Notes under the pieces: generated by a model
What the model saw: only the letters and a program-made list of their open reading frames with translations
What the model was told of the DNA's origin: nothing
Databases searched by the model: none
Shown here: positions 2,714 to 5,006 of the stretch, piece after piece
Layout of the letters: every line of letters starts with the position of its first letter
Position numbering within the stretch: position 1 is the first letter of the stretch
NCBI RefSeq assembly: GCF_016101585.1
Contig: NZ_JACFQG010000002.1
Coordinates: 124,001 to 188,000 of the forward strand
Direction: 5' to 3'
Length of the DNA stretch: 64,000 bases
DNA from: Bifidobacterium polysaccharolyticum
GTDB lineage: Bacteria > Actinomycetota > Actinomycetes > Actinomycetales > Bifidobacteriaceae
Position numbers and translations under genes: made by a program

Positions 2714-3211
2714 TCAGGACTCGGGGTGGTTGCGGAAGAAATCCACAACCCCGCGGCGGACCTTCTCCTGGTCCTCCTTGGTGCCCATGAGCTCGAAATA
2801 ATAGAGGAAAGGCACATTGCACTTGCGGGAGATGATGTCCCCCGCCATGCAGAAGGCCTCCCCGAAGTTGGTGTTGCCCGAGGCGATGACCCCGCGGATG
2901 CCGGCCCGGTTGGCCGGGTCGTTCAGGAAGCGCTTGATCTGCGGCATGACCGCCTTCTTGGCTGATCCGCCCCCATAGGTGGGGACGATCAGGATGTAGG
3001 GCTGCCGAATGTTGAGCGGTGGATCCTTGGGCCTCAGAGGGATGCGGAAGACGTCAATCCCCTCGTCATCCAAATGGCAGTTGGCGATGAACCGGGCGGT
3101 GTTGCGCGAGGCCGACGAGAAGTAGACCACGGCCCCCAGGCGCTGACCCTGGGCGGCGAACTCGGGAGCACTGAGCTCCGAATCAGTTCCGGCGGTCTGC
3201 TGTTGCTCCAT
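2714..3211 (-). CDS. nrdI: NrdI flavodoxin-like protein (paired with nrdE)
   Basis: FMN-binding flavodoxin-like protein that delivers an oxidant to NrdF during cofactor assembly. The 165-residue product shows VYFSSASRNTARF near the N-terminus (the FMN phosphate region), VPTYGGGS and SGNTNFGEAF, all typical of NrdI. The ATG at 3211 has AGGAGG a few bases upstream. It precedes nrdE on the same strand, and its upstream region carries a pair of NrdR-like boxes, so it is probably the first gene of an nrdI-nrdE-nrdF unit. A second NrdI at 4448-4936 is clearly diverged, so each NrdF may have its own activator. That pairing is inferred from gene order. Confidence 0.95.
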   Translation of the reverse strand: MEQQQTAGTDSELSAPEFAAQGQRLGAVVYFSSASRNTARFIANCHLDDEGIDVFRIPLRPKDPPLNIRQPYILIVPTYGGGSAKKAVMPQIKRFLNDPANRAGIRGVIASGNTNFGEAFCMAGDIISRKCNVPFLYYFELMGTKEDQEKVRRGVVDFFRNHPES

Positions 3212-3304: not shown

Positions 3305-3351
3305 CTACTATATGTGCTATTGGTCTTGAAAACGGTGAGCATATATAGGGT
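3305..3351 (-). promoter_or_regulatory. Candidate NrdR box pair upstream of nrdI-nrdE
   Basis: Two AT-rich elements resemble the NrdR consensus (core CWATATATWG). One is around 3305-3320 with CTATATGTG. The other is around 3336-3351 with GCATATATAG. Their starts are 31 bases apart, about three helical turns, as is usual for NrdR. The match is weaker than at 4959-5006. The position, between the end of the upstream nrdF and the start of nrdI, implies a separate NrdR-controlled promoter. Confidence 0.55.
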
Positions 3352-3386: not shown

Positions 3387-4451
3387 CTAGAAGTCCCAGT
3401 CGTCGTCGTCAGTGGACTCGGAGTGCCCCATGACATAGGAGGAGCCCGAACCCGAGAAGAAATCGTGGTTCTCGTTGGCCGAGGGCGACAGAGCCGCCAG
3501 GATCTCCGAGCTGACATCGGTCTGGTCGGCCGCGAACCGGGCCGGGTAACCCAGGTTCATCAGCGCCTTGTTGGCATTGTAGCGAACGAAGGCGAAGACA
3601 TCCTCGACGAAGGGGAAGCCCTGATAAATCTGCCCGGAGTAGACCATCTCCAGGTCGTAGAGCTTGTCCAGCAAATCGTTGGTGAACTTCTCCAGCATGG
3701 TCTGGTCGGCCTGGGTCCTCTCCTCCAGACCCCGCTGATACTTGTAGCCCGAGTAATAGCCATGGATGGCCTTGTCTCGCAGAATCAGGCGGATCATGTC
3801 GGCCGTGTTCATCAGCTTGGCATGACTGGAGAAGTAGAGAGGCAGGTAGAAGCCCGCATAGAGCATCAGCGAGGAGAGCATGGTGGAGGCCACCTTACGC
3901 TTCAGGGGATCCTCGCTGACGTACTCGTGCAGGACCGTGTGGACGCGCTCCTGGAGCACGTCGTTGGCCACGGCCCAGCGGTAGGCCTTGTCGATCTCCT
4001 CGCTGGAGCAGAGGGTGGAGAAGACCGAGGAGTAGGAGCGGGCATGGACCGACTGCATGAAGGCGATGTTGGTGTAGATGGCCTGCTCCTGCTCGGTACG
4101 AGCGTGATCGATCTGCACCAGCTCGCCGATGGTGGCCTGGGTGGTGTCCAGCATGGTCAGTCCGGTGAAGACGCGGACCGTGGTCTGGCGCTCGTGATCG
4201 GTCAGGGTGTTCCAGGATGGGATGTCGTTGGACAGGGGCACCTTCTCGGGCAGCCAGAAGTTGGAGACCAGTCGGTTCCAGACCTCCAGATCCTTCTCGT
4301 CGGTGATGTTGTTCCAGTTGACCGGGCGAATCCTGGCCTCAGGGGTAACACGGTACTGGGGCGGGGTGATGGATTGGCGCATCATCTCGTCGTCGGCATA
4401 GACACCGGCCTCTGACTTGGTGCTTTCTTGTGTGCTTTCCTGCTGGCTCAT
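3387..4451 (-). CDS. nrdF: NrdF with QSK ligand substitutions: predicted metal-free class Ie small subunit
   Basis: A 354-residue NrdF with the full fold and C-terminus ([19 protein letters not shown], then DDDDWDF). Compared with canonical NrdF, three of the four carboxylate metal ligands are changed. The second ligand Glu is Gln at residue 133 ([10 protein letters not shown]), the third is Ser at 193 ([11 protein letters not shown]), and the fourth is Lys at 227 (RDKAIHGYY). The first Asp (D102), both histidines (H136, H230) and the radical Tyr (Y140) remain. I checked the codons: CAG, TCC, AAG. This Q-S-K set is the known signature of class Ie R2, which works without metal using a DOPA radical made from the Tyr with the help of NrdI. 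Its ATG overlaps the stop of a dedicated nrdI (ATGA), so the two are translationally coupled. The class Ie assignment rests on motif comparison, not experiment. Confidence 0.93.
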
Positions 4452-4936
4452 GACAAAACCGCCTTTCGTGAATCAGTCGACTGCTGCTGGAGCTGCACTC
4501 CCATTCCGGCCAGAATGGCCCTCACCGCCTGTACATCCTCCGCGGTGCCCAGCAGCTCGAATCGATAGAGCTCAGGGACGCCGCACCGGCGGGCTATCAG
4601 CGGGCCGGCCGCGCAATAGGCGCTGCCGAAGTTCCGGTTGCCCGAGGTGACGACTCCGCGGATCAGTCCGCGGTTGACCGGATTGTTCAGGAAGTGGATC
4701 ACCTGCTTGGGCACGGCTCCCTTGGCTGACCCGCCGCCATAGGTGGGCACCAGCAGAAGGTAGGGCGCATCCATAACGGGCATGGGCTGGCGCCGCTCGT
4801 ACAGGGGGATGCGGATGGGCTCCTCCACGCCCAGCCGCTGCACAAAGCGGTGGGTGTTGTTGGAGACGCTGGAGAAGTACACCAGCTTGGAGGCACCATC
4901 GGGAGGATCGTGCCGATCCACATCTGCTGAGGACAT
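4448..4936 (-). CDS. nrdI: Second NrdI, coupled to the class Ie NrdF
   Basis: A 162-residue flavodoxin-like NrdI with [28 protein letters not shown] and [11 protein letters not shown]. In class Ie systems NrdI is needed to convert the radical tyrosine of NrdF to DOPA, and the stop-start overlap with the QSK-type nrdF fits that role. The reading frame is open to 4996, but the ATG at 4936 is preferred. It has GGAG upstream, and the longer N-terminus would run through the NrdR-like boxes. It differs widely from the nrdI at 2714-3211 outside the core motifs, so it is not a recent copy. It appears to be the first gene of a two-gene nrdI-nrdF unit. Confidence 0.94.
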
Positions 4937-4958: not shown

Positions 4959-5006
4959 ACACTATATATTGGATAGGCTTGGCCAGCCAACCACAATATA
5001 TAGGTT
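4959..5006 (-). promoter_or_regulatory. NrdR box pair upstream of the class Ie nrdI-nrdF unit
   Basis: Two strong matches to the NrdR consensus lie 23 bases before the nrdI start: ACACTATATATTGGAT at 4959-4974 and CCACAATATATAGGTT at 4991-5006. They start 32 bases apart, the three-turn spacing expected for cooperative NrdR binding. NrdR is the ATP/dATP-sensing repressor of ribonucleotide reductase genes. No nrdR gene is in the window. Confidence 0.85.

Follow-up and report, generated by a model that had tools for sequence, protein, structure and literature searches.

A class Ie (QSK-type) ribonucleotide reductase subunit gene beside a class Ib subunit gene and a single nrdE in Bifidobacterium

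Does the nrdF(Ie) gene of this locus encode an ordinary class Ib subunit of ribonucleotide reductase (RNR), as its automatic annotation has it, or a metal-free radical subunit (R2), and what would such a subunit do next to a class Ib R2? The gene lies in the window, the whole stretch of 64,000 nucleotides of DNA that was analysed, whose source we take to be an asteroides-type Bifidobacterium from the bee gut, the habitat of its named relatives. Its ORF, whose strand was absent from the original prediction, runs from an ATG start without internal stops (Table 1). Read directly from the codons, the ligand and radical sites of the product are D102, Q133, H136, Y140, S193, K227 and H230. In an alignment with class Ib NrdF, Q133, S193 and K227 fall on three Glu ligand positions, so that Gln, Ser and Lys replace all three Glu metal ligands of class Ib, and the Asp (D102), both His (H136 and H230) and the radical Tyr (Y140) are retained. 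Codons and alignment thus agree with the original prediction, which had reported this replacement of metal-binding carboxylates and had dismissed a reading slip. Sequencing error is ruled out by the presence of the gene, at 97-99% identity, in 12 other genomes of the genus. It had also been foreseen that automatic annotation would see an ordinary NrdF, and NCBIfam 'class 1b ... subunit beta' models do score above their cut-offs; the class Ib label that the databases give to this product calls for correction.

Table 1. Positions of RNR genes, active-site codons and NrdR-type boxes in the window
Feature	Position	Strand	Description
nrdF(Ib), 331 aa	1..297, on to window position -698	minus	Start portion in window; DEHYEEH; PF00268 305 bits
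nrdE, catalytic R1 subunit, 736 aa	467..2677	minus	TIGR04170 1160 bits; single PF02867 match in genome
nrdI2, 165 aa, native bifidobacterial NrdI type	2714..3211	minus	TIGR00333 138 bits
Weaker tandem NrdR-like boxes upstream of nrdI2	3305-3320 and 3336-3351	minus	Starts 31 bp apart; 10/16 and 11/16 matches
nrdF(Ie), class Ie QSK R2 subunit, 354 aa	3387..4451	minus	DQHYSKH motif; 8RAG 608 bits; QSK clade 100/100
H230 codon CAT	3762-3764	minus	Codon read directly
K227 codon AAG	3771-3773	minus	Codon read directly
S193 codon TCC	3873-3875	minus	Codon read directly
Y140 codon TAC	4032-4034	minus	Codon read directly
H136 codon CAT	4044-4046	minus	Codon read directly
Q133 codon CAG	4053-4055	minus	Codon read directly
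D102 codon GAC	4146-4148	minus	Codon read directly
nrdI1, flavoprotein NrdI, most likely 162 aa	4448..4936	minus	TIGR00333 147.7 bits, cut-off 74.65
Tandem NrdR-type boxes upstream of nrdI1	4959-4974 and 4991-5006	minus	Starts 32 bp apart; 2 and 3 mismatches to ACACWATATATWGTGT

Judged by its sequence, the nrdF(Ie) product belongs to class Ie, QSK subgroup, and motif, alignment, nearest solved structure and tree all back this assignment, which the original prediction had made from the motif. Among the 108 homologues scored in the R2 alignment (two further rows, one from a gene remnant and one from a highly divergent paralogue, were set aside), 52 show DQHYSKH at the seven sites and 56 show DEHYEEH, and no sequence is intermediate. 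About 20 more columns split the QSK from the class Ib rows with hardly an exception, among them E110 (Ala in class Ib), Y157 (Phe), L197 (Phe) and S234 (Ile). In a tree of these 108 proteins, based on 313 columns with the 3 diagnostic columns among them, every QSK row lies on one side of a branch with support of 100/100, and the window R2 groups with QSK rows of Bifidobacterium, Gardnerella and B. thermophilum (100/99). Among solved chains, 8RAG and 8RAH come closest, at 608 bits; both are the class Ie R2 of Gardnerella vaginalis, the first lacking DOPA and the second containing it. Class Ib chains come next at about 434 bits and lower. Residue numbers differ from those of the G. vaginalis protein by a constant offset of 10, giving Q143, S203, K237, D112, H146, Y150 and H240 (PMC11846895). 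An AlphaFold model of the window R2 (pLDDT 82.7) likewise has its best Foldseek E-value with 8RAG; because the global superposition is poor (rmsd 12.7), no active-site geometry was drawn from the model. Three of the six class Ib ligands, D-E-H-E-E-H, are replaced in the product, and the Q-S-K residues and the gene order I-F-I-E-F, not nrdFIE, place it outside the VPK subgroup as well. Mycoplasma and Aerococcus, which had been proposed as comparators, are both VPK and not QSK; the apt ones are Gardnerella and Bifidobacterium. The QSK class Ie enzyme is already a published kind, with 275 QSK sequences in 266 GTDB genomes, all from Actinomycetota, and one characterised member (John et al., 2025; PMC11846895). 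What is added here is another member and its genetic setting.

The residues on which the radical chemistry depends can be followed from Mesoplasma R2e, in which D88, Q91, Y126, L183, F187 and K213 move on gaining the radical, Y163 lies in the oxidant path, and W52 and Y325 form the relay (Lebrette et al., 2023; PMC7615503). They map at a constant +14 (13 for the tail) onto D102, Q105, Y140, L197, F201, K227, Y177, W66 and Y339 of the window R2. Among the 52 QSK rows, D102, Q105, Y140, Y177, L197, F201, K227 and W66 are kept in every one and Y339 in 51; in the class Ib rows, position 197 is Phe in 56/56 and position 227 is Glu in all. The relay and conformational gate set is present in the window R2 (W66, D226, Y339, Q105, Y177, L197, F201 and K227); with the mapped residues invariant in QSK rows, Y339 bar one row, the radical machinery is therefore complete. 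In the proposed mechanism, Y140 hydroxylated to DOPA would carry the radical with neither Mn nor Fe, the oxidant being supplied by reduced NrdI; K227 would fill the place of one metal ion and, with D102, gate proton transfer, and the radical would reach NrdE, the R1 subunit, by way of W66 and Y339.

The DOPA cofactor, the absence of metal and the activity itself are predicted by analogy with the 78%-identical G. vaginalis protein. That QSK R2 contains only trace Mn/Fe, shows no metal in the crystal and has the Lys ammonium at the Mn1 position; its Tyr is converted to DOPA when NrdI is co-expressed, CDP reduction requires both DOPA and reduced NrdI, a stable radical is absent after purification, and activity is low (PMC11846895). 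The same metal-free crystal and trace metal content make it barely credible that the window R2 is a class Ib variant using metal through the odd ligand set D102, H136 and H230, even though these two His and one Asp are still there.

nrdF(Ie) lies in a five-gene run on the minus strand, nrdI1-nrdF(Ie)-nrdI2-nrdE-nrdF(Ib), inside which the window begins. The normal class Ib nrdF of this cluster, whose product has all six metal ligands, and the second nrdI were missed by the original prediction. Genome-wide (2.23 Mb, 14 contigs, 99.98% complete), the RNR genes comprise two for R2, one for a PF02867 R1, one for class III NrdD, one for NrdR and one for NrdH, which is outside the cluster; neither a second R1 nor a class II enzyme was found in the genome. 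The two R2s are 58% identical overall, and in the C-terminal R1-docking tail 24 of the last 29 residues are identical. Because the genome has one class I R1, the simplest reading is that NrdE is shared, and from the sequences we infer that this single NrdE serves the products of both nrdF(Ie) and nrdF(Ib) as interchangeable radical subunits. The same view of R1 sharing has been taken for QSK genomes in which nrdF has no nrdE of its own (John et al.; PMC11846895). Since a class Ib R2 with a full set of metal ligands accompanies this R1 and the genome also encodes an anaerobic class III RNR, the organism is not reliant on class Ie alone. The original prediction took it as given that the organism can make DNA precursors without Mn and Fe, which by analogy is plausible; the metal-free subunit would come into use under an aerobic shortage of Mn or Fe, and the class III enzyme would take over under anoxia.

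Class Ie activity depends on reduced NrdI and O2. NrdI is encoded twice near nrdF(Ie), by nrdI1, which overlaps its start by 4 nt, and by nrdI2 downstream. The ATG at 4936 is the most likely start of nrdI1, supported by AAGGAG in the start region and by the same shorter start in locus L006; the longest ORF begins from a TTG at 4996. The two proteins are 48% identical. In the NrdI tree, NrdI2 falls in the bifidobacterial NrdI clade (100/99), and NrdI1, on a long branch, groups with NrdIs adjoining QSK nrdF in other Actinomycetota (95/79). NrdI1 would thus be the activator of the Ie subunit. It is not strictly required, because two sister genomes (G014 and G015) keep nrdF(Ie) without nrdI1; there, NrdI2 can probably serve both R2s. 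As to origin, a recent tandem copying of NrdI2 into NrdI1, that is, a common origin of bee-gut NrdI1s and NrdI2s alone, was rejected (AU p 0.005), and an older origin of NrdI1 within Bifidobacteriaceae was not (AU p 0.078).

Each nrdI is preceded by tandem boxes of NrdR type. Ahead of nrdI1, the two sites are the only hits in 18 kb, where chance would give 0.02, and the pair is kept in relatives. The pair ahead of nrdI2 is weak on its own and recurs at the same place with 11 and 12 matches in G014 and G015, 10 and 13 in genome G018, and 11 and 11 in locus L008. An NrdR gene is present in the genome, and these motifs suggest that nrdI1-nrdF(Ie) and nrdI2-nrdE-nrdF(Ib) form two transcription units, both under predicted NrdR control; readthrough from the former into the latter is possible. 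Scans for sigma-70 promoters and terminators gave chance level only and were left unused. NrdR senses nucleotides, not metals. Orphan nrdF(Ie) genes with no nrdI or nrdE nearby occur at L118, L121 and L123 (in G016, G023 and G024) and at L015 and L017, and an NrdR-like box pair lies at or just ahead of the starts of all five.

The nearest named relatives are Bifidobacterium choladohabitans, B. mellis and B. apousia, with 98-99% identity in the nrdF(Ie) product. In 13 of 27 genomes in the genus, nrdF(Ie) lies some 4.1 kb upstream of nrdF(Ib), the five-gene order having been read directly in 6 of them and deduced from spacing in 7; two others have the same arrangement minus nrdI1, three have nrdF(Ie) alone elsewhere, eight are class Ib only with neither an intact nrdF(Ie) nor a detected remnant, and one, G018, has fragments only. 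In this last genome, pieces of nrdF(Ie) covering residues 28-78, 257-306 and 280-354 lie directly upstream of nrdI2 (L120, 8506-8936) and the class Ib genes are intact; the metal-free R2 has here been lost in nature. nrdF(Ie) is under strong purifying selection, with dN/dS of 0.03-0.08, a little weaker than that on nrdF(Ib) (0.01-0.04) and on nrdE. This bears on the reading of the QSK gene as an inactive, decaying or structural R2 copy beside a class Ib R2 that does all the work. The full class Ib R2 in the cluster fits such a reading, as do the broken gene of G018 and the eight genomes without one, in which the subunit is dispensable. Against it, however, stand the low dN/dS, the invariant relay and gate residues, the gene's own NrdR boxes and overlapping NrdI gene, and the activity of the Gardnerella homologue, which is the only class I R2 of its organism (PMC11846895); an inactive copy is therefore highly improbable.

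Across the family (189 genomes), the codon pattern of the Gln motif was found in at least 50 genomes and that of the Glu motif in at least 101; the patterns overlook some genes, three orphan QSK genes of the genus among them, so that these counts are lower bounds. Outside the genus, the two patterns never occur in one genome (35 with Gln vs 74 with Glu), and a protein search of the 35 Gln-pattern genomes gave a single exception, G135, in whose 360-contig assembly a second R2 of canonical type lies on a different contig. Coexistence of the two R2s is thus nearly confined, within the family, to the genus of the window. A phage or plasmid origin of nrdF(Ie) was also considered and rejected: among the matches listed there is no QSK protein, the best plasmid and phage matches, at 57-62%, lie in the class Ib range, and 78 of 80 viral-contig matches have Glu at the Q133 site, the motif being unreadable in the other 2.

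Taken as a whole, the explanation that we hold to be very probably right is that nrdF(Ie) encodes a metal-free class Ie QSK R2 with a DOPA cofactor, that it shares NrdE with the class Ib R2 in two NrdR-controlled units, that NrdI1 is its activator, and that it is used when Mn or Fe is short and O2 is present. Its last element meets the most serious alternative, in which the class Ie R2 is active and has been selected for something other than metal shortage, for example exposure to superoxide or peroxide, or the dosage of a second copy. Both units seem to be under NrdR, a sensor of nucleotides and not of metals; a predicted capacity for respiration and genes for catalase and SOD in B. asteroides PRL2011 (PMC3447821) make oxidant exposure plausible; and under what conditions cells use class Ie is stated to be open in general (PMC8463856). 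The one point on the other side is that class Ie chemistry most directly removes the need for metal, with otherwise nothing against, and we consider this alternative unlikely but worth keeping in view. To return to use under metal shortage, class Ie is, to our knowledge, the only RNR subclass with a metal-free start of the radical. Organisms with class Ie as their sole RNR cannot reveal when it is used, since they run it all the time; the present cluster, where a metal-free R2 and one dependent on metal accompany a single R1, offers a test bed for the metal-shortage role, together with sister genomes that have lost one of the two. The side-by-side arrangement in a non-pathogenic bee symbiont is hence the useful part, the enzyme type itself being already published. 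A wider proposal, to which we give an even chance, is a two-cofactor RNR in which one NrdE is served alternately by the metal-free DOPA R2 with NrdI1 and by the dimetal R2 with NrdI2, with a separate tandem of NrdR boxes for each unit; no other bifidobacterial group would keep the two R2s next to each other, and the bee-gut genus would represent a natural halfway stage between lineages in which one has replaced the other. No papers on RNR in asteroides-type bifidobacteria were found in a search of mainly non-subscription literature; the gene-order supplement to PMC11846895 may already list I-F-I-E-F.

R2x, a highly divergent homologue of R2 with 30-43% identity to NrdF, was seen at L168-L179 (genomes G121, G064, G131, G124, G129, G123, G132, G127, G126, G122, G130 and G133) and at L135/L183 (G007). 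The former are 12 genomes outside the genus of the window, each with a QSK R2e as its only canonical R2. R2x follows nrdE wherever nrdE was read, and nrdI was seen with it directly in L169, L170, L172 and L179. Its ligand sites read E102, E/S133, H136, Y140, E/Q193, I/L227 and S230; Glu227, His230 and the radical-relay tail Tyr are lost, and the C-terminal EETSDDDWDF is kept. Its best profile matches are class Ib models, far under their cut-offs, and its model, of low confidence (pLDDT 55), has an R2 fold by Foldseek. dN/dS is mostly 0.1-0.3, and the gene is broken in L177. R2x may be a regulator or, much like yeast Rnr4, an R2 that binds R1 without being catalytic; a literature search gave no match for it. 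G007 has R2e and R2b and, in addition, R2x near a 199-aa nrdE fragment (L135, 6407-7006, 85% identity), as if the two had been acquired from a related species; the presence of the same stretch at both contig ends (L135/L183) is probably an assembly overlap. In another genome, G125, whose match coordinates are those of L017 (Bifidobacterium sp. ESL0682), nrdE falls into two ORFs and nrdF(Ie) is disrupted close to its C-terminus, which reflects either decay of the aerobic RNR or sequencing errors.

Among known systems, the closest is the QSK R2 of G. vaginalis (Bifidobacterium vaginale; 8RAG, 8RAH), which shares with the window R2 78% identity, the QSK triple, the retained D/H/H/Y, an N-terminal extension and the need for NrdI (PMC11846895). 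There, however, the QSK R2 is the sole class I R2, the gene order is nrdHIEF and the NrdI is of bifidobacterial type (PMC11846895), whereas in the window genome nrdF(Ie) follows its own divergent nrdI1, nrdH is elsewhere and a class Ib nrdF is in the cluster. The VPK R2s of Mesoplasma florum and Aerococcus urinae (6GP2, 8BT3, 6EBO, 7MMP) have the metal-free DOPA mechanism, gate and relay residues that align with those of the window R2, and an N-terminal extension shared in part with it; they differ in having Val-Pro-Lys instead of Gln-Ser-Lys, in their 48-51% identity and in the order nrdFIE (PMC11846895), and against the QSK profile they score under several class Ib chains. Finally, class Ib R2s with their NrdI, such as M. 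tuberculosis NrdF2 and the nrdF(Ib) product of the same cluster, share the fold, the R1-docking tail and the partnership with NrdI, but have Glu at all three positions and a dimetal centre.
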